IMG/VR virus record: IMGVR_UViG_3300020428_000061
Location: 1-28,601 of that record
Reading direction: 5' to 3' (one strand)
Length of the DNA stretch: 28,601 nucleotides
DNA from: a virus
A model generated the notes under the pieces. The model searched no databases and was not told the origin of the DNA. It saw only the letters and a program-made list of their open reading frames with translations. How positions within the stretch are numbered: the first letter of the stretch is position 1; each line of letters starts with the position of its first letter. A program made the position numbers and the translations under genes. Below, one piece after another: positions 2,156 to 27,919 of the stretch.

Positions 2156-2612
2156 GGACTGGAGTTGAACTTGGGTATTAATTACCAAATATGCAGAGAC
2201 ATATTTTATACCCAGGCACTTAATCTTAGATAGGCACAAAAGACCTTAGATTAAGAGAGCCAGAGTTCAGGGGGAAACTTCAGGTGTTTATGAAAAATGT
2301 GATGCAGGTGTAATTCCTGCCACAGGATAACTATGGGTTCACCATTATGTTCTATTTATGGAACTTTATGGGAACTATGGGGATATTATGGTGCTTTATA
2401 GGATACTATGGGATATATTATGGTAATTAGCGTACAAAAATTGAAATGGCTAAAATTAAAGCTCGACAAGGGATGTACACTATGGTACACAGCGTTTCAA
2501 ATGAATGCCGTCGCCGCCAAAACTCAAATCCCCACAAAAGTCCCATATTTGGAACTGTGCTACCTTCTCGACAGAGTTAGCACTTGTCATTTTTTCAAAA
2601 AGGAGATTTGGA
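2153..2612 (+). promoter_or_regulatory. Long structured leader upstream of the RNA polymerase gene
   Basis: No convincing gene fills this stretch. Three strong hairpins follow each other: CTTGGGTAT (2170-2178) with ATACCCAGG (2208-2216) enclosing AAATATG/CATATTT (2187-2206); CTTAATCT (2219-2226) with AGATTAAG (2248-2255), bracketed by GGC/GCC; and GCAGG/CCTGC (2304-2320) around TGTAATT, followed by CCACAG/CTATGG with one mismatch. The third hairpin reads GGTGTAATTCC, like the P4 loop of cobalamin riboswitches, but no B12 box is visible. A 44-codon frame (2446-2580) is open but weakly supported. Confidence 0.5.
2329..2425 (+). repeat. Degenerate repeats of CTATGGG / ATTATGG units
   Basis: Units such as GGATAACTATGGG, GGAACTATGGGGATATTATGG and GGATACTATGGGATATATTATGG recur at roughly 30-base intervals. 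The repeats place about eight ATG triplets in front of the RNA polymerase gene. One of them (2333) opens a 22-codon frame rich in Trp, Tyr and Gly that ends at 2401. Confidence 0.5.
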
Positions 2613-5417
2613 TTGAAGTTTAGTGATACAATTATAAAACAACTAGAGAAAAGCCTTAAGACTAGTTTAAAGGTTATCGACGACGACGTATTCCAAAAGG
2701 AAATACCTCAACATTATCTTAAGTATAACGATTATCCTTGGTTAAATCATGTTTCTGTTAAGCTTTTAGAAACACAGGCTGAAATAGAGAAAAATGGCAT
2801 ACTAACAGCTAGAAAGAAATATGCTGAAAGTTATAATGACTTAAAGGTAAAGTCTCCATCTGTTCACCCAGTTATAAAAGCTTACCAAAATAAAGTCATA
2901 GCAACTTCAACAAGAGCTATGAACGATTGGTTAAAATTAAAACTTAAAACCAAATCTGGACCGAAGCCAATTGGCTTTGAAGAGATTATAGCTTTAGGTG
3001 CTGATAAAGCTGTTGCACTTGCAATGCCACATATTCATAGAGGTGTTGAAAAAGCACATACTATGCAGAAAGTATGTATTGGTATTGGTCATGCTATCCA
3101 AGACCAGTTGTTTATCATTGAAGCAAGAAGAAAAGATAGAGAACTAAACGGTGATAGTAGTTTTACCAGCAGAGTTTTGAATGACAGTAAAGAGAGTGGA
3201 ACTTATCTTTATAGAAGTAGATATGTAAAAAGACGTTTGCATCATAATGACTTAATTGCAGACATTACCAAATGGGATAATACTAAAGCAGCCGAAATTG
3301 GTGGTGTGGTTGTAGACTGTGTGTACGAAACAGGTGAGTACATTGATTTTCGCAAAGAGAAAAATCAAGTTGTTACTTTTAAGTCTAAAGCAAAAGATAA
3401 GAAGACAGGATTTACAAAACCAAAAGAAAAGAAATGGTTAGTCTTTAAAGATGAGGTCAAACTGTTTCTTGACAGGAACAATGCCTATTTGCAGTTTGAA
3501 GACTTTACATATCCTATAATGGTCATTCCACCTAGACCTTGGACAGATGAGAACACAGGTGCTTTTCTTACCAACCATGTAAGAGATAAATTTGGATTAG
3601 TTATTACTAGAAAGCAATCACAAGCGAAAGCTATCCGGGAACAAAGAAAAGCTGGGAAGTTAGATGGTTTGCTTAATACAGTTAATAAAATTCAAAGCAC
3701 TCATTATGACATGAGTCCATTTATGCACAAGGTTTTGAAATACTGCCAAGTCAAGAAAATACCTTATCTAAACAAACCAATGGAAAATATTGTACCAATA
3801 TCAGTTGAAGAATATGCTGATATAAATGGCTTATCTTTTGATAAATCTGAATGGGATAAGCAAGACACAAGAAGATTTAATGCTCATAGAAAAGGTCAAT
3901 ACAGACTTCAGCATGAAATTGAAATGCAAAGAATGCAGTTTGAGAAAGACCATGAGACAAGTTTATTTATATTAGAACTTGGAACTGGATTGTGGATACC
4001 ATTCTGTCTTGATTGGAGAATGAGAATGTATTGTGGTTCTTACTTTTCATATCAAAGAGATGATGCCATGAAATCTAGGTTTGTTTTTAGAATAAAGAAA
4101 CGCCTGGGTGTAAATGGCTTGAACCAACTTAAAAGGCAAGTGGCTACCTTTTATGGCAACGGAATTGATAAGGTTAGAATTTCTAACCGAATTCAGTGGA
4201 CTGATGACAACTACGACTTAATTAAAAAGACAGTAGATAATTGGAAGACTGATAAGTTTTGGTTAGAAGCAGATGAGCCTTGTCAATTCCTTCAAAACTG
4301 TAAAGAACTAGTTGATGCTATAGAGACTGGTAATCCAGAAGCTTTTGAAAGCAATCTTATAATTTGGAATGATGCATCTAACTCTGGTCTTCAACAATAC
4401 TCTATGGAAAGACGTGATGCAGTTGGTGCTAAAGACACTAATATGACTATTCTTCCAAAAGACCAAGTTAAGTCTAATGATTTCTATATTAAGATTAGAG
4501 ATGCTGTTGAAGATAAGATTAAAAATACCAAATGGGAAAATGAATACGATAAAACAGCTGCTAAACAGTGGCTCAAATTTGGTATCAAAAGAGGTGATGT
4601 TAAGACACCAGCTTTTACTTATTTCTATAATTCTCGTGAATGGGGAATGCAGGATGAAGTTTTAGATAAGACTATGTCACCTCTTAATGTGAAGATGTAT
4701 TCTGAAAAGAATTTTAAGCATCCCTTTGGTGGATATCAAGGCTCAATAAATGCAGCTCGTTTTATGGGTAGTATCATTTATAATCTTGTAGGTGATTATG
4801 CTCCAGCTGCTAATGAAGCTATGAAGTTCATCTTAGAAATAACAGGTATATTGTCTGATTTTGACATTAATCTTAAAATCATAAATCCTTCAGGATTTCC
4901 AATGGTACAGGCTTATGAACAACCAAATCCAAAGCCTAAGACTATTAGAATACCTATGTATGATTTTAGCTTTAAGGTTAGACACAAAAAAGGTGTACAT
5001 GACCATCAACTAAAAATTGCATCCACTATTCCAAATACTGTTTACAAGACTGATAGTGAGAATGGTTCGTGTCCAAACATTGTTCACTCGTATGATGCTA
5101 GTCAACTTGATTTAGCAGTTCAAGATGCAACTCATTCTGAAAATCCAAACAGAATATCACATGTTGCAGTTAACCATGATTGTGTAGGCACTCATGCTTG
5201 TGATGCAGATGAATTTGTAAAGAGTTACAAATTTGCAGGGATACATATGTATTCCGAAAATAGCTTTCTTGAGCAAGTTTATAATTATGCCAAGGAATGC
5301 ATTGGAGAGGAATTCACTCATCCCATAACTGGTAAAGAAATGAAATTACCACCTATTCCAACTAAACTTGGTTGGGATATTGAGGAATACTACGACTCAG
5401 AATTAAGTATCTCCTAG
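2613..5417 (+). CDS. T7-type single-subunit DNA-directed RNA polymerase
   Basis: The enzyme transcribes phage middle and late genes from its own promoters. The start chosen is TTG 2613 (MKFSDTIIKQ), because AAAAAGGAG ends eight bases before it; an in-frame upstream start at 2505 has no ribosome site. This gives 934 aa against 883 in T7. Visible motifs: DWRMRMY near residue 467 (T7 DWRGRVY); motif A with catalytic Asp587 in NDASNSGLQQ; motif B with Lys664 and Tyr672 (VKTPAFTYFYNSR, same eight-residue spacing as T7 K631/Y639); PNIVHSYDAS; and motif C HDCVGTH with Asp856. All catalytic residues are present. Confidence 0.97.
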   Translation: MKFSDTIIKQLEKSLKTSLKVIDDDVFQKEIPQHYLKYNDYPWLNHVSVKLLETQAEIEKNGILTARKKYAESYNDLKVKSPSVHPVIKAYQNKVIATSTRAMNDWLKLKLKTKSGPKPIGFEEIIALGADKAVALAMPHIHRGVEKAHTMQKVCIGIGHAIQDQLFIIEARRKDRELNGDSSFTSRVLNDSKESGTYLYRSRYVKRRLHHNDLIADITKWDNTKAAEIGGVVVDCVYETGEYIDFRKEKNQVVTFKSKAKDKKTGFTKPKEKKWLVFKDEVKLFLDRNNAYLQFEDFTYPIMVIPPRPWTDENTGAFLTNHVRDKFGLVITRKQSQAKAIREQRKAGKLDGLLNTVNKIQSTHYDMSPFMHKVLKYCQVKKIPYLNKPMENIVPISVEEYADINGLSFDKSEWDKQDTRRFNAHRKGQYRLQHEIEMQRMQFEKDHETSLFILELGTGLWIPFCLDWRMRMYCGSYFSYQRDDAMKSRFVFRIKKRLGVNGLNQLKRQVATFYGNGIDKVRISNRIQWTDDNYDLIKKTVDNWKTDKFWLEADEPCQFLQNCKELVDAIETGNPEAFESNLIIWNDASNSGLQQYSMERRDAVGAKDTNMTILPKDQVKSNDFYIKIRDAVEDKIKNTKWENEYDKTAAKQWLKFGIKRGDVKTPAFTYFYNSREWGMQDEVLDKTMSPLNVKMYSEKNFKHPFGGYQGSINAARFMGSIIYNLVGDYAPAANEAMKFILEITGILSDFDINLKIINPSGFPMVQAYEQPNPKPKTIRIPMYDFSFKVRHKKGVHDHQLKIASTIPNTVYKTDSENGSCPNIVHSYDASQLDLAVQDATHSENPNRISHVAVNHDCVGTHACDADEFVKSYKFAGIHMYSENSFLEQVYNYAKECIGEEFTHPITGKEMKLPPIPTKLGWDIEEYYDSELSIS

Positions 5418-11953: not shown

Positions 11954-13936
11954 ATGCACAGAGAACCATCCACAAGAGCCAAAGTCGTCACAAGGCGCAC
12001 ATACAACAGACCAACTAATTCAGAAGCCACCAGGTTTGAAACTTGGGAAGAAACAATAGCAAGAGTGATGAACCATCAACGTTGGTTATGGGAAAGAGCT
12101 TTGGAAAGACCATTAGATATGTTTCAAAGAAAAGAACTCATAGATTTAGCTGACCATATTAAAGACAGGGAAGTTTGTGTAAGTGGTAGAACATTATGGA
12201 TGGGTGACACTAAAAGGTCTAAGGAAAGAGAAGCTACTCAATTCAATTGTGCATTTAAAAGAGCAGAAACAGTACACGACGTCGTCGACTTATTTTGGTT
12301 ATTACTAAATGGTTCTGGGACTGGCTTTTTACCAACAACAGGTCATCTTTGTGGCTTTCCAAAGAAACTTAAAATTGAACAAGTATTTTCTACTAATGAT
12401 GCAGACTACAAAGGTAGACCAAGAAATGTTGAAACTTATGATACTAAAAATAAAGTTTGGACTATTCATATTGGAGATGATGCTCAAGCTTGGGCAAAGA
12501 CAGTTGGAAAACTATTAGCTCATCCATTTCCTAAAGCAAAAACTCTAGTGCTTAATTCAAGTGAGATTAGAGGTCCTGGTAAAAGAGTTGAAGGTTATGG
12601 TTGGATATCAGTTGGTGATAGACCATTTCAAGATGCATTACTTAATATTTGTAAGCTGCTTAATGATAGAGCAGGGCATTTATTAACAAGTGTAGATATT
12701 GTTGATGTAATGAACCATTTGGGAACTGTTTTAAGCACAAGAAGAAGTGCTGAAATAGCAATACTTCCATTTAATCATCATGAGTGGCAAGACTTCGCTA
12801 AGATGAAGAAAGACCATTGGGAACATAACCCACAAAGGTCACAATCTAACAACTCAATTCTATTTGATGCAAAGCCTTCAAGAAAACAATTAGAAGGAAT
12901 ATTTGATTTAATTACTGAAGCAGGTGGAAGTGAACCGGGTTTTATCAATGGAGAAGTTGCTAGGAAAAGAGCATCTTGGTTTAGTGGTACAAATCCTTGT
13001 GGTGAAATCTTACTGTCGGCTGCTGGTTCATTTTGTAATCTTTGTGAAATAGATTTGTCTAAATTCAATGGTAGGTGGACACAACTCAAAGCAGCTGCTT
13101 ACCTAATTGCTAGAGCAAACTTTCGGCAAACTTGCACTGATTTAAGAGATGGTGTTCTAAGTCAATCTTGGCACGAAAGTAATGACCATTTAAGATTGAT
13201 GGGCGTCGGCATCACCGGGTTTGTTTCTTGGGAATATCAGAATGACAAACATAAAATGCAAGAGCTTAGGAAGATAGTTAGAGAAGCAGGTAGAAGCATG
13301 GCATCAGAACTTGATATGCCATTGCCTAAAGCTGTAACAACAGTCAAACCAAGTGGAACATTATCTAAAATAATGGATGCAAGTGAAGGCTGCCATAAGC
13401 CACTTGGCAAGTACATTCTAAACAACATAAACTTCCAAGCATCTGACCCAATTGTAGATAAGCTTAGAGCTTCAAATTATAATGTCTTTGCTAATCCATA
13501 TGATGAGACTGGTGTTCTTGCATCTTTCCCTATCAAATGGGATGACATAGACTTTGAAGAAGTCGACGGCAAGTTAGTCAATCTAGAAAGTGCAGTTACT
13601 CAGCTAGATAGATACAAGTTCTTAATGGACAATTGGACAGACCATAATACATCAATAACTGTCAGCTATAGTCCAGATGAAATACCAAGCATCATAGATT
13701 GGATACTAGAAGATAAGAATTGGAATTCATTTGTTGGTGTAAGTTTCTTACTTAGAGCTGACCCAACGAAGACTGCCCAAGACCTCGGCTATCCATATTT
13801 GCCACAACAAGTAATAACTCAAGAAGAGTTTGAGTGTTATAGCGAGAAGCTTCTACCTGTTGACTTAGATGTTGATGGAATGATGGTTGATGACATTGAT
13901 GCCGATTGTGCTTCAGGTGTTTGTCCAACAAGATGA
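11954..13936 (+). CDS. Class II (adenosylcobalamin-dependent) ribonucleotide reductase, monomeric type
   Basis: It reduces ribonucleotides to deoxyribonucleotides using a cobalamin-derived radical, so it needs no oxygen or second subunit. Length 660 aa fits the monomeric Lactobacillus leichmannii-like RTPR group. Key residues: the redox pair Cys99 (FNCAF) and Cys361 (FCNLC); the radical Cys349 and Glu351 in NPCGE; TVKPSGTLS; and the C-terminal relay pair Cys652/Cys657 in DCASGVCPTR. All are present, so it should be active. Cobalamin must come from the host. ATG 11954 follows AGGGA. The stop overlaps the next start (ATGA). Confidence 0.95.
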   Translation: MHREPSTRAKVVTRRTYNRPTNSEATRFETWEETIARVMNHQRWLWERALERPLDMFQRKELIDLADHIKDREVCVSGRTLWMGDTKRSKEREATQFNCAFKRAETVHDVVDLFWLLLNGSGTGFLPTTGHLCGFPKKLKIEQVFSTNDADYKGRPRNVETYDTKNKVWTIHIGDDAQAWAKTVGKLLAHPFPKAKTLVLNSSEIRGPGKRVEGYGWISVGDRPFQDALLNICKLLNDRAGHLLTSVDIVDVMNHLGTVLSTRRSAEIAILPFNHHEWQDFAKMKKDHWEHNPQRSQSNNSILFDAKPSRKQLEGIFDLITEAGGSEPGFINGEVARKRASWFSGTNPCGEILLSAAGSFCNLCEIDLSKFNGRWTQLKAAAYLIARANFRQTCTDLRDGVLSQSWHESNDHLRLMGVGITGFVSWEYQNDKHKMQELRKIVREAGRSMASELDMPLPKAVTTVKPSGTLSKIMDASEGCHKPLGKYILNNINFQASDPIVDKLRASNYNVFANPYDETGVLASFPIKWDDIDFEEVDGKLVNLESAVTQLDRYKFLMDNWTDHNTSITVSYSPDEIPSIIDWILEDKNWNSFVGVSFLLRADPTKTAQDLGYPYLPQQVITQEEFECYSEKLLPVDLDVDGMMVDDIDADCASGVCPTR

Positions 13937-14299: not shown

Positions 14300-14366
14300 A
14301 CTAACCGTGCTGTCCTTAAGAGGACTTAATGGAACGAACGAGAAATCGTCGTCGAGGAGATAAAAA

Positions 14367-14498
14367 ATGTTAATAAATTACACACTAGAAACTCTTAGAT
14401 TATTAAATCAGAGACTATCATTTTGGTTAAGCAACAGAGCTGTATTAGCTATTGTATGCATAGCTATTGGAATTGTTATAGGAGATATGAGTGGATAG
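14367..14498 (+). CDS. Small membrane protein (43 aa), holin candidate
   Basis: GAGGAG lies seven bases before ATG 14367. The product has a polar, helical first half (NYTLETLRLLNQRLSFWLSN) and one membrane segment (AVLAIVCIAIGIVIG) ending in DMSG. A single-pass membrane protein of this size could be a class II/III holin or a regulator, but no endolysin is seen in the window to support a lysis cassette. A terminator-like hairpin overlaps its 3' end. Confidence 0.6.
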   Translation: MLINYTLETLRLLNQRLSFWLSNRAVLAIVCIAIGIVIGDMSG

Positions 14499-14508
14499 TC
14501 TCCTTTTT
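14480..14508 (+). terminator. Terminator-like hairpin overlapping two small genes
   Basis: AGGAGA (14480-14485) pairs with TCTCCT (14499-14504), followed by a run of five T. The left arm also holds the ribosome site of the gene starting at 14491, so the hairpin would both weaken that start and favour termination. Confidence 0.55.
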
Positions 14509-14637
14509 GTACGCACACAATCTGTGGTGCGCCAATATATTTCACAAATGCCTAATGTCCGGGAGACATACATTGGTTTTAAAGTAGACACACTGGATGT
14601 TTCATCTTGTGCTTCTGCAACAAAAACAAGGACTTAG
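14491..14637 (+). CDS. Small hypothetical protein (48 aa)
   Basis: GTG 14491 is preceded by GGAG (six-base spacing) and overlaps the previous gene by eight bases. The product begins MDSLLFVRTQSVVRQYI and continues with a protein-like mix (FKVDTLDVSSCAS), ending TKTRT. There is no membrane segment. The ribosome site lies in a terminator-like stem, suggesting controlled expression. No function is recognised; it is supported by its start context and composition only. Confidence 0.5.
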   Translation: MDSLLFVRTQSVVRQYISQMPNVRETYIGFKVDTLDVSSCASATKTRT

Positions 14638-14708
14638 TTTACCTAGTATTACTTTTCTCTAGGAATTTTAGGTTCACAAGGCGATTTCTGCCCCCTGTAC
14701 CCAAAAAA

Positions 14709-14761
14709 ATATCTCGATTTAAAAAAGCAGCTAAAGGTTGTTGTTGTTGTTGTTGAGATAT
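14709..14761 (+). repeat. (GTT)6 microsatellite inside an inverted repeat
   Basis: GTT is repeated six times at 14737-14754. It lies between ATATCTC (14709-14715) and its exact complement GAGATAT (14755-14761). The 14638-14804 stretch holds no other gene; it also contains a CCTAG/CTAGG stem (about 14642-14663). The repeat lies just upstream of the methyltransferase and could alter spacing of a control signal if it varies in number. Confidence 0.65.
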
Positions 14762-14804
14762 CGGAGTGGTGAGTGGGCATCTCAGAAAAAATAAAAATAG
14801 GAAG

Positions 14805-16130
14805 ATGGAGCAAATGATAAATGACTTGGATAATACCGAAAACACTATTAACCACATATCCCTCTGTACTGGATACGAAGGGATTGGGATTGGACTTAGA
14901 AGAGTTTTCCCAAACTTGCGAGAAATCGCTTACGTTGAGAGGGAAGGATATGCCACAGCGCTCTTGGCAAAGAAAATGGAAACAGGAGAGTTGGCTCCAG
15001 CGCCTATCCACACGGATGTTAAAACCTTCCCATACGGAAGATTTCTTGGACAAGTGGGTATCCTCTCAGGAGGATTTCCATGCCAACCATTTAGCAGTGC
15101 CGGTGAACGACAATCAACCCAGGACCCTCGACACTTATTCCCCTTCATCCTCGAAGGAATTAAACAGTGTAGACCAGAGCTTGTCTTCCTCGAAAATGTC
15201 GACGGCATCATCTCCTCAAAAACAGGAGATGGAGAAAGTGTTCTCAAATATGTCCTCAGAAGCTTGGAAGAAGTGGATTACACAGCAACGGCAGGAGTAT
15301 TCTCAGCGGTTGAAGTCGGCGCACCTCACCAGAGAAAAAGAGTTTACATCCTGGCCTACTCCAACAGTTGCCGAAGCAGGAAAGATTGGAAAAACTCCAT
15401 ATGGTCAGAAGGGCTTGAGCAATCATCCACAAGTGATTGGAGAAGTAATAACCAGACCGAAGATGAACAAGAGCCGAAAGGGCGAGAAGATGAATTGGCC
15501 AACACCGACGGCTGGAATGATAAAGCAAGACGTGGGCGACCAAGGACAATATGCTCAGAGAGTTCAGGACAACGGTCATCAAGTGATGTTGCCCTCAGCA
15601 GTGAAGTTGAGCAATTGGCCAACTCCTCAAGTATCGGACATGAATGGAGCAGCCAATCCAAACAGGGAAGCTCACCGAAGACAACTCAGAGACGTAGAGA
15701 CTGGCTTTGGCCAAGTCGCCCCAATGAACGACAACACTCCTGGGAAGCACCAAGAGTCATCTTGGCTAACACCACGAGTAGTGGAAATAGAAGAGAGCCG
15801 GGAGAGCTGGTTGAAGAGAAACAAGAAGTACGGCAGGAGCAAAGGTCACTCCAACCTGACAATGCAAGTCAAGGAGAACACTTGGCCAACTCCACAAGTT
15901 CATCTAGCGAAGGAGACGAACTCTCCAGCGGAATACAATCGCAAGACCAAGTCAATGATTGCAGTAGCAACCAAACAACCCAACCACAATCTCAAACTCA
16001 ACCCAGAGTGGGTGGAGCAACTCATGGGATTAGACATAGGGTGGACAGACTTAGGCTTTTGGGCAACGGAGTTGTCCCAGCCACAGCCGAAAAAGCATTC
16101 AGAGTTCTTGCTAACAGGCTAATGAAATAA
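14805..16130 (+). CDS. C5-cytosine DNA methyltransferase
   Basis: It methylates cytosine in DNA, probably protecting phage DNA from restriction. Motifs in order: I (LCTGYEGIGIGLRR, SAM binding), II-like YVERE, IV GGFPCQPFSSAG with catalytic Cys93, VI FLENVDG near residue 130, VIII GAPHQRKRVYIL, and finally IX/X RLRLLGNGVVPATA. Between VIII and IX lies about 220 residues of Ser/Glu/Arg-rich sequence with repeated LAN(S/T) words instead of a normal target-recognition domain. That region is read in a second frame by the nested gene. ATG 14805 is chosen; GTG 14766 and ATG 14814 are alternatives. The gene is clearly richer in G+C than its neighbours. Confidence 0.92.
   Translation: MEQMINDLDNTENTINHISLCTGYEGIGIGLRRVFPNLREIAYVEREGYATALLAKKMETGELAPAPIHTDVKTFPYGRFLGQVGILSGGFPCQPFSSAGERQSTQDPRHLFPFILEGIKQCRPELVFLENVDGIISSKTGDGESVLKYVLRSLEEVDYTATAGVFSAVEVGAPHQRKRVYILAYSNSCRSRKDWKNSIWSEGLEQSSTSDWRSNNQTEDEQEPKGREDELANTDGWNDKARRGRPRTICSESSGQRSSSDVALSSEVEQLANSSSIGHEWSSQSKQGSSPKTTQRRRDWLWPSRPNERQHSWEAPRVILANTTSSGNRREPGELVEEKQEVRQEQRSLQPDNASQGEHLANSTSSSSEGDELSSGIQSQDQVNDCSSNQTTQPQSQTQPRVGGATHGIRHRVDRLRLLGNGVVPATAEKAFRVLANRLMK
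14821..16122 (+). CDS. Nested +1-frame gene inside the methyltransferase (433 codons, WPTP-motif protein)
   Basis: The frame runs 433 codons without a stop, entirely inside the methyltransferase gene. GGAG ends ten bases before its ATG. Five WPTP/WLTP motifs start at 15352, 15496, 15616, 15763 and 15883; each is the shifted reading of LAYS/LANS/LANT in the methyltransferase. It also contains RQEYSQRLKSAHLTRE and, near the end, LNPEWVEQLMGL followed by GWTDLG. Such WPTP and LNP-WVE-LMG phrases are familiar to me from phage proteins linked to C5 methyltransferases. The function is unknown; a role with the methyltransferase is likely. Confidence 0.6.
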   Translation: MTWIIPKTLLTTYPSVLDTKGLGLDLEEFSQTCEKSLTLRGKDMPQRSWQRKWKQESWLQRLSTRMLKPSHTEDFLDKWVSSQEDFHANHLAVPVNDNQPRTLDTYSPSSSKELNSVDQSLSSSKMSTASSPQKQEMEKVFSNMSSEAWKKWITQQRQEYSQRLKSAHLTREKEFTSWPTPTVAEAGKIGKTPYGQKGLSNHPQVIGEVITRPKMNKSRKGEKMNWPTPTAGMIKQDVGDQGQYAQRVQDNGHQVMLPSAVKLSNWPTPQVSDMNGAANPNREAHRRQLRDVETGFGQVAPMNDNTPGKHQESSWLTPRVVEIEESRESWLKRNKKYGRSKGHSNLTMQVKENTWPTPQVHLAKETNSPAEYNRKTKSMIAVATKQPNHNLKLNPEWVEQLMGLDIGWTDLGFWATELSQPQPKKHSEFLLTG

Positions 16131-25888: not shown

Positions 25889-27919
25889 ATGGCAAAATAT
25901 AAAAAACTAGCTGAGAAAGATGTTCTTACTATTGTAGATGCAAACATCAAACAAGCTGTAGGATACTTTGATAGTAAGTTATCAACTGAACGTCAAAGAG
26001 TAATGGAATACTACACAGCAAAACTTCCATTTCCTCATCACGACGGCAATTCTAAATTTGTATCCCAAGATGTATACAATGCTGTTGAAAGTATGAAAGC
26101 TGCTCTTCTTGAAGTGTTTGCTTCCGGGAGAAAGATTGTATCTTTTACTCCACAAAATCCTGAAGATGTAGAACCTGCAAGAATAGCTAGTGAATACATA
26201 GATTATGTAGTCTTTAGACAGAACAATGGATATGAAGTTTTTAGTGAAGTAATTCAAGATGGTTTAATGTCTAGAATTGGTGTTGCTAAAGTTTATTGGC
26301 AAGACATGATTGAACCAATAGAACAGGAATTCTCAGGCACAGTTGAGAGCCTAGATGTTTTATTAGCTGATGATGCTTATGATATAAAAGATATTTCTAC
26401 ACCTAATGTAGATACTGGTGAAATCACAGCTACTGTTATTTTCAATAAGAATAAAAGCCAAGTAGTAATCGACCCTATAGCTCCTGAAGAATTTATTGTA
26501 GAGCCAAGAGGTGTTGACCTTCAATCTATGAACTTTATGGCGCATAGAAGTTCAAGAACTATCTCTGAATTAATAAAGATGGGTTTTGATAAAAAGAAGA
26601 TTGAAAAGATTGGAACAAGTGAAGGCCCAGCAGATTTAGAAACTGACCCTGAACATTTAGCTAGATTTGAAAATGTTGGTGCAGATATGCTCAATGTTGG
26701 AAAAGATTACCAAGAGCAAATTAGAACTGTCTTAGTTTATGAAGCTTACATGAACATAGATATGGATGGAACTGGTGTAGCTAAAAGATATAAGATTTGT
26801 AAAGCTGGAACACAAATTTTAGATATTGAAGAATGTGAAGATTTACCTTTCATTCATTATTGTCCACTTCCAATACCTCATAGCTTTTATGGCAGTAGTT
26901 TTGGTAAGCGTTTAATTGATATTCAAAATGGTAGAAGTATTCTTACAAGGTCAATTTTAGACCATGCAATAATATCTAATAATCCAAGATATGTTGTAAC
27001 CAAAGGTGGTTTGGTAAATCCTCGTGAGCTAATGAATAATAAGGTTGGAGGTATTGTAAATACTACAAGACCAGATGCTATTCAGCCATTACCTCAAGCA
27101 GCTCTTAATCCATTTGTATTTCAGACATTAAATTTACTAGATGAAGAATTAGAAGATACATCTGGCATAAGTAGATTATCTCAAGGTCTAAACAAAGATG
27201 CAGTAAGCAAACAAAATTCAGCTGCTATGGTAGAACAGTTAGCTACTTTATCAATGCAAAGACAAAAGATATTAGCTAGGAATTTTGCTAATCATTTTGT
27301 ACGCCCTCTATTTGAAAAAGCTTACAAACTTATTGTTGAGAATGAAGATAGAGACAAAATAGTAGACGTAGCCGGGAACTGGATTGAAGTTAATCCTAAG
27401 ACATGGGTTGAAAGTAGAAATGCTTTTGTAGACCTTCATCTTGGATATGGTGAGAATGATAGAGAAGCTCAGAAGCTTCTAGGTCTTCACCAGATGATGT
27501 CCCAGGACCCTTCATTACAAGCTATGTACACTCCTCAAAACAGATACACAATGATGAAAACTGTTCTTGAGAAGAATGGTATTAAGAATGTTGCAGATTA
27601 CATAACTGACCCATCTGAATTACCACCACCTCAACCAAATCCACAGCAAGAATTACAACAGCAAATGCAGATTAAAGCTATGGAATTACAGGAAAGACAA
27701 ACTGCAATTGGCGAACAGAAAGTTCAAATAGATGCAGAAGAGAAGGCTGACAAACAAGACTTAGCCGAACAAAAAGCAGAGTTTGAAGCTGCTCTTAAAT
27801 CAGACCAACAAGACTTAAGAGAAAGACAACAAGCTCACAAGGAAGAAGTTAATCGGAAGGAGCTAGAACTAGCAAAGGGAGCTGAAGATATTAGAGCCAT
27901 TGCTAGTCCAAATGCATAG
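25889..27919 (+). CDS. Portal protein, P22-like
   Basis: It forms the dodecameric ring through which DNA enters and leaves the capsid. The opening helices and GNSKFVSQDVYNAVESMKAA, then VEPARIASEYIDYVVFRQNN and GVAKVYW, fit portal proteins of the P22-like group rather than T7 gp8. The central region carries ILTRSILDHAIISNNPRY and the conserved wing-stem part. From about residue 570 the protein becomes Gln/Glu/Lys-rich with heptads (QEQ, EEKADKQDLAEQKAEFE), a long C-terminal coiled coil like the P22 portal barrel. At 676 aa it is close to P22 gp1 (725). Confidence 0.88.
   Translation: MAKYKKLAEKDVLTIVDANIKQAVGYFDSKLSTERQRVMEYYTAKLPFPHHDGNSKFVSQDVYNAVESMKAALLEVFASGRKIVSFTPQNPEDVEPARIASEYIDYVVFRQNNGYEVFSEVIQDGLMSRIGVAKVYWQDMIEPIEQEFSGTVESLDVLLADDAYDIKDISTPNVDTGEITATVIFNKNKSQVVIDPIAPEEFIVEPRGVDLQSMNFMAHRSSRTISELIKMGFDKKKIEKIGTSEGPADLETDPEHLARFENVGADMLNVGKDYQEQIRTVLVYEAYMNIDMDGTGVAKRYKICKAGTQILDIEECEDLPFIHYCPLPIPHSFYGSSFGKRLIDIQNGRSILTRSILDHAIISNNPRYVVTKGGLVNPRELMNNKVGGIVNTTRPDAIQPLPQAALNPFVFQTLNLLDEELEDTSGISRLSQGLNKDAVSKQNSAAMVEQLATLSMQRQKILARNFANHFVRPLFEKAYKLIVENEDRDKIVDVAGNWIEVNPKTWVESRNAFVDLHLGYGENDREAQKLLGLHQMMSQDPSLQAMYTPQNRYTMMKTVLEKNGIKNVADYITDPSELPPPQPNPQQELQQQMQIKAMELQERQTAIGEQKVQIDAEEKADKQDLAEQKAEFEAALKSDQQDLRERQQAHKEEVNRKELELAKGAEDIRAIASPNA

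Follow-up and report, generated by a model that had tools for sequence, protein, structure and literature searches.

A phage C5-cytosine DNA methyltransferase gene with a nested +1 reading frame: evidence for dual coding and a proposed two-subunit enzyme

In the two-polypeptide DNA methyltransferase M.EcoHK31I, the gene for the larger chain also encodes the smaller one, in an alternative frame. The conserved motifs of this enzyme (YGGCCR) are divided such that the larger polypeptide carries motifs I-VIII and X and the smaller one motif IX, with the recognition domain predicted to reside on the larger subunit (PMC3404938). M.AquI represents another divided enzyme of two polypeptides, the second of which carries the variable region together with motif IX (PMC3404938). 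The ShiLan domain, an HNH endonuclease, provides a further case, as it is concealed in a second reading frame of a phage methylase gene (PMC11855218).

The locus described here lies in a phage genome, recorded as a virus entry of 28,601 bases in IMG/VR (the whole of this stretch is referred to as the window), which encodes a T7-like RNA polymerase, a T7-type primase-helicase, a DNA polymerase A, a ribonucleotide reductase and an SU10-type portal protein. The RNA polymerase (2505-5417), the class II-like ribonucleotide reductase (11954-13936) and the portal (25889-27919) co-occur in this record, and the best match of the portal in the phage collection is just 29% identical. The stretch at 14300-14800, located 5' of the methyltransferase pair, contains no convincing gene and carries a GTT/TTG simple repeat at approximately 14736-14755; it is possibly a leader or promoter region for the pair.

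Layout of the two reading frames

An earlier note on this DNA, made from the letters alone, had described two overlapping frames on the same strand, and both of them, termed A and B (+1) in the following, were confirmed to be open (Table 1). Position 1 of each B codon is position 2 of an A codon, such that the silent third position of A is the second of B, and the third position of B is the first of A. The G+C content amounts to 0.45-0.50 across the overlap versus about 0.36-0.40 outside, which bears out the elevation reported before. The conserved start of frame A is probably the in-frame ATG at 14814, because this is the only A start common to the relatives L001 and L006. It forms an ATG-N4-ATG pair with the start codon of B at 14821, 7 nt apart, which is kept in both relatives, as is the tandem layout of the Shine-Dalgarno-like sites: AGGA at 14799-14802 precedes the ATG at 14814 by 11 nt, and GGAG at 14807-14810 precedes the ATG of B by 10 nt. 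The start codon and ribosome site previously attributed to B itself are therefore present, while the assignment of either site to either start remains an inference.

Frame A matches PF00145 (5.2e-33) and phrog_363 (1.7e-52) and meets the expectations for a C5 methyltransferase in having motifs I, IV (PCQ), VI (ENV) and VIII in one chain and a C-terminal motif X (GN..V), which is packed on the catalytic core in the model. Such an enzyme should also contain motif IX and a folded recognition domain, but neither was identified in A, and the homologous segment is found in B; nothing similar to motif IX was detected in A when 45 homologues were aligned, which share motifs I-VIII and X. Of the full set of motifs ascribed to A in the earlier note, motifs I, IV, VI, VIII and X are indeed present, but motif IX is not. 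The AlphaFold model of A is confident at residues 11-195 or thereabouts (catalytic core) and 420-441 (motif X helix), and disordered at approximately 208-418, i.e., over about 210 residues where the recognition domain should be. Superposition on M.HhaI gave a Z-score of 22.2 over 199 of 327 residues (span 13-441), and A is predicted from this model to fold as an HhaI-like catalytic core without the small domain. A contains conserved islands of its own, WPSRP..EAPR and GRV.NG..RVDRLR (see also Table 1).

Frame B matches phrog_1008 (3.8e-19 for the window), as do 45/45 B homologues. The four WPTP motifs and one WLTP motif which had been seen to be written over LAYS, LANT or LANS in A were all recovered. 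The B proteins mostly contain one to six such blocks each, with a median spacing of 36 residues; since five are present in the window, three in L001 and only one in L006, close relatives differ by the gain or loss of blocks that are open in both frames. The segment LNPEWVEQLMG..GWTDL near the end of B was also found as described, but it does not lie opposite a combined motif IX/X region, as had been assumed: A contributes only motif X there, and the B segment looks like the motif IX itself that is absent from A. When modelled alone, B shows mostly low confidence (mean pLDDT 51.8; about 90 for the motif IX helix), as might be expected of a subunit folding on its partner. No solved structure matches B by sequence, and no credible PDB match was obtained for short profiles of motifs IX and X either. 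Some databases call B a 'DNA methyltransferase' without explanation, and otherwise it has no annotated function. Pfam and NCBIfam matches to iron trafficking, glycosyltransferase and related models (E 0.026-0.15) were below the cut-off and were rejected, and no match to an HNH nuclease was found in B with Pfam, PHROGs, NCBIfam or PADLOC.

Table 1. Coordinates of the two frames and their features in the window
Feature	Position	Strand	Remarks
Frame A: C5-cytosine DNA methyltransferase, putative catalytic subunit	14805..16130	+	441 aa; motifs I-VIII and X
Frame B: nested +1 protein with WPTP repeats, proposed subunit for target recognition and motif IX	14821..16122	+	433 aa; phrog_1008, selection tests, homology to one-frame methyltransferases
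Tandem Shine-Dalgarno-like sites	14799..14810	+	sequence
A motif I, GYEGIGIG	14871..14894	+	
A motif IV, GGFPCQPFS (catalytic Cys)	15069..15095	+	
A motif VI, LENVDG	15189..15206	+	
A motif VIII, VGAPHQRKRV	15315..15344	+	
B WPTP block 1 (LAYS in A)	15352..15366	+	
B WPTP block 2 (LANT in A)	15496..15510	+	
B WPTP block 3 (LANS in A)	15616..15630	+	
A island WPSRPNERQHSWEAPR within otherwise disordered A region	15708..15755	+	W313 invariant in 45 homologues
B WLTP block 4 (LANT in A)	15763..15777	+	
B WPTP block 5 (LANS in A)	15883..15897	+	
B motif IX-like segment LNPEWVEQLMGLDIGWTDL	15997..16053	+	core invariant in 45 B homologues; pLDDT ~90 in model
A motif X, GNGVVP	16062..16079	+	C-terminal helix modelled on core

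Evidence for coding in both frames

Difference rates were determined from 56 independent pairs of relatives with a mean identity of 78% in the catalytic domain. For the first, second and third codon positions of A (A1/A2/A3), they were.229/.146/.534 in the region occupied by A only,.193/.121/.348 in the overlap of B with the catalytic domain,.457/.271/.258 in the WPTP zone if aligned by B (.405/.266/.330 if aligned by A), and.232/.189/.489 on the 3' side of the end of B. The most variable position therefore moves from the third position of A to that of B and back again, in agreement with the earlier proposal that B sets the sequence after motif VIII. In position bins, the A3/A1 ratio is low for the greater part of the 60 codons leading up to the end of motif VIII, and, as judged from the substitution pattern and the profile scores given below, selection on B is detectable from about this distance onward. 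Farther upstream, overlap with B again goes along with a reduced raw A3 rate, but since the A1 and A2 rates decrease as well, there is only weak evidence for selection on B in the first half of the catalytic domain.

The two frames were further compared with permuted sequences. In the A-preserving null, synonymous codons were permuted within A, keeping the protein and the codon usage exactly. B of the window was stop-free in none of 2000 such permutations (mean, 6.6 stops), and, with an independent profile of the family, its C-part reached a score of 60.2 bits, compared to a mean of 2.1 and a maximum of 21.5 bits in the null. A of the window remained open in 0/300 B-preserving permutations of the WPTP zone (null mean, 10.6 stops), and the corresponding stop-free fraction of A had a median of 0.0067 over 146 loci. 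The parts of B were also scored with profiles trained on other loci, using five data splits with 24 test loci each. The C-part exceeded every A-preserving null in 24/24 test loci of all five splits (62-69 bits versus about 2 for the window; z 19-23), the part that covers roughly the final 60 codons of the catalytic domain exceeded all permutations in 17-22 of the 24, and the tail of A did so in 15-18 of them with B preserved. The view of the earlier note that B is forced by A in the catalytic half holds in part, since the null already reaches about 18-30 of some 50 bits there, but it does not extend to the final portion of the domain, where selection on B sets in. Note that the permutations erase shared codon ancestry as well as selection; training and test loci were less than 65% identical in the catalytic domain, and silent sites there should be near saturation. 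That both frames are genuine coding sequences is established as far as sequence allows. To our knowledge, long same-strand overlaps in double-stranded DNA phages have seldom been documented with evidence of selection in both frames.

Distribution and relation to one-chain methyltransferases

The nested +1 pair was identified in 146 loci, in all of which the catalytic frame is shifted by -1 relative to B and extends beyond the C-terminal motif of B. Most of them were recruited solely by this motif and the remainder by searches with A, B or phage records, while the catalytic domain was not part of the motif queries; because the recruitment proceeded via B, these loci do not give the fraction of A-type methyltransferases which carry B. 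The hosts or metagenome-assembled genomes belong to about ten phyla (Pseudomonadota, Bacillota, Bacteroidota, Actinomycetota, Verrucomicrobiota, Planctomycetota, Nitrospirota, Chlorobiota, Fibrobacterota, and Thermodesulfobacteriota). The suspected systematic nature of the dual-coding pair is supported by this distribution, and the comparative tests which had been suggested for it were run and agree. The pair is usually annotated as one gene, and both genes are annotated in Paenibacillus phage Shelly ('g55 internal gene') and Escherichia phage fTaEco03 ('Mte8-like'). Acinetobacter phage ABMM1, in which only B is annotated, was considered as an example of B forming a stand-alone family, but the A frame is present there without annotation.

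A set of 31 one-frame methyltransferases from actinophages and related viral contigs contains the catalytic half, PTP repeats, an EWMMGWPAGW-like segment and GNG(V/I) in a single chain, and the profile of B matches every one of them (31/31; best E 3e-17). The matching segment is located between motifs VIII and X and should therefore represent, by its position, the recognition domain plus motif IX. On the basis of these profile matches, B is homologous to this segment of the actinophage enzymes. An unprompted HHalign comparison placed LNPEWVEWLMG on RRLTPRECARLMG of E. coli Dcm (RRLTPRECARLMGF) in the right register, yet with weak support (P about 0.1), and the link of the B segment to the canonical motif IX of Dcm is only suggestive. 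In an unrooted tree of the catalytic domains, the nested state is scattered over the whole tree and is therefore regarded as old, and the fused forms are found together with two of the four split forms in one actinophage branch. The fused state may be derived, with the reservation that the tree is unrooted.

Some loci deviate from the common layout. The viral contigs L077 and L111 contain an indel near the end of motif VIII, which shifts the WPTP/motif IX part and results in three-frame layouts, and in another one (L100) the catalytic half is fused in frame to the WPTP/IX part with motif X out of frame; sequencing error, decay and natural re-fusion cannot be told apart in these three cases. 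In a Lawsonibacter metagenome-assembled genome (L173:2419-3087), the catalytic domain is directly in frame with NPEWVEWLMGFPIGWT, WPTP repeats are absent and motif X is out of frame. Frame A ends after motif VIII in a Paraburkholderia locus (L115:1954-3468) and in a viral contig (L091:1847-2737), and the B frame of the former holds WPTP, motif IX and motif X, as in an AquI-like split outside the actinophage branch. Mycobacterium phage Ochi17 (L024; gp73/gp74, annotated as two DNA methylases) has a broken catalytic frame with a frame change before the motif IX segment, and perhaps represents a decaying gene.

Proposed function and comparison with known systems

The function of the pair was not stated in the earlier note; the evidence points to B as a motif IX and recognition subunit. 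We consider it likely that A and B constitute a two-subunit C5-cytosine DNA methyltransferase, in which B provides motif IX and DNA recognition in trans, although the biochemistry is inferred in the absence of expression or activity data. Both frames would be translated, B from its own ATG located 7 nt 3' of the conserved ATG of A. A would be the catalytic subunit with motifs I-VIII and X, crossing the overlap as a disordered linker and being unable to read DNA alone. B, the WPTP-repeat protein with a putative motif IX (LNPEWVEQLMGLDIGWT) near its end, would bind to A and supply the motif IX and the DNA-reading small domain missing there, and the two proteins would jointly methylate the DNA of the phage itself, probably against host restriction. 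There is good support for this reading without its having been demonstrated: that B is translated, forms a complex with A and sets the specificity is inferred, as is the protective role, and the very different numbers of WPTP repeats among close relatives count against it.

Three other explanations have to be weighed against these data. A might be complete with a minimal, disordered recognition loop, while B has a separate role, e.g., as inhibitor, anti-restriction factor or DNA-binding partner. The conserved islands which A keeps for itself (WPSRP..EAPR and GRV.NG..RVDRLR) would fit this alternative, and so would the functional annotation of B, which is an inherited name alone; we nevertheless regard it as unlikely, given that the C-part of B has its homologue in the recognition/motif IX part within the chain of the fused enzymes and that A has no identifiable motif IX or folded small domain. 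Programmed frameshifting, with ribosomes entering B once motif VIII is made and returning to A ahead of motif X, would yield a single chimera comparable to the fused actinophage enzymes, and would also show an A-B-A pattern of constraint and their order of segments. However, such a chimera requires two shifts, and would need neither the stop-free state of A through the WPTP zone, which is kept far beyond chance (see median above), nor an open and selected B upstream of any shift site. Together with the own start and Shine-Dalgarno-like site of B, these observations render frameshifting very improbable.

It can hardly be maintained that B is an untranslated by-product whose motifs are dictated by codon bias and by the conserved codons of A. 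The part of B over the catalytic domain is indeed explained by A to some extent, as reflected in the null scores given above, but the C-part falls to almost zero bits under A-preserving codon permutation, and in the WPTP zone the third positions of A, which are silent in A, are the slowest, whereas the first positions, i.e., the third of B, are the fastest. A mere artefact of A is contradicted by the permutation tests and the substitution pattern alike.

If the two-subunit reading applies, it may be extended, though only tentatively, to a family of phage and bacterial C5 methyltransferases from many phyla in which the sequence-reading half is permanently out of frame in the catalytic gene, and in which the WPTP blocks (about 36 residues apart, mostly one to six per protein) might serve as specificity modules that can be gained or lost. 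Specificity could then be changed by duplicating or deleting WPTP blocks that stay open in both frames. The overlap itself is old and widespread, and almost all members of its family have it, with the proviso that loci were recruited by B. This suggests that many entries named 'DNA methyltransferase' represent a catalytic or a recognition subunit whose partner was missed, so that single-frame clones may be inactive. The locus also offers a testable system for the evolution of two mutually binding proteins on one DNA, and for the question whether repeat blocks set DNA specificity or not.

A view on the known systems shows that the layout of M.EcoHK31I is met, with motifs I-VIII and X but no motif IX on the large polypeptide and motif IX on the small one, where the identity of motif IX in B rests on its position in the fused enzymes and on the weak match to Dcm. 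Since the recognition domain of M.EcoHK31I is predicted on the larger subunit, the split between A and B need not be identical; in contrast to that enzyme, the large chain A has no folded recognition domain in the model, and B carries WPTP repeats. M.EcoHK31I moreover belongs to a restriction-modification system, whereas the gene described here is a phage gene with no restriction enzyme recognized beside it. The arrangement of M.AquI, whose small subunit holds motif X in addition to motif IX, does not apply, as motif X is on A; AquI-like relatives are those of Streptomyces phage Euratis and mycobacteriophage Severus, which are split with a +1 shift and have motif X in the second part. Mycobacterium phage Akhila gp60 and Gordonia phage Phinally gp5 share the order of catalytic half, PTP repeats, EWMM..PAG and GNGV, but differ from A/B in consisting of one frame and one chain. 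The ShiLan domain resembles B as a second protein in another frame of a phage methylase gene, but is a mobile homing insertion encoding a nuclease, whereas B has no nuclease match and is near-universal in its family (as recruited by B). The same nested +1 gene occurs in Paenibacillus larvae phages, where it is recorded as an unexplained 'internal gene' and is not discussed in the Paenibacillus genome papers. The statement that such a pair is not described was too strong, in view of these 'g55 internal gene' records and of the two-polypeptide precedent M.EcoHK31I (PMC3404938). No description of a nested WPTP methyltransferase family was found in the open-access literature, and a family of this width, whose second frame contains WPTP modules built from repeats, seems to be undescribed; the finding is a very widespread variant of the known two-polypeptide kind rather than a new category.
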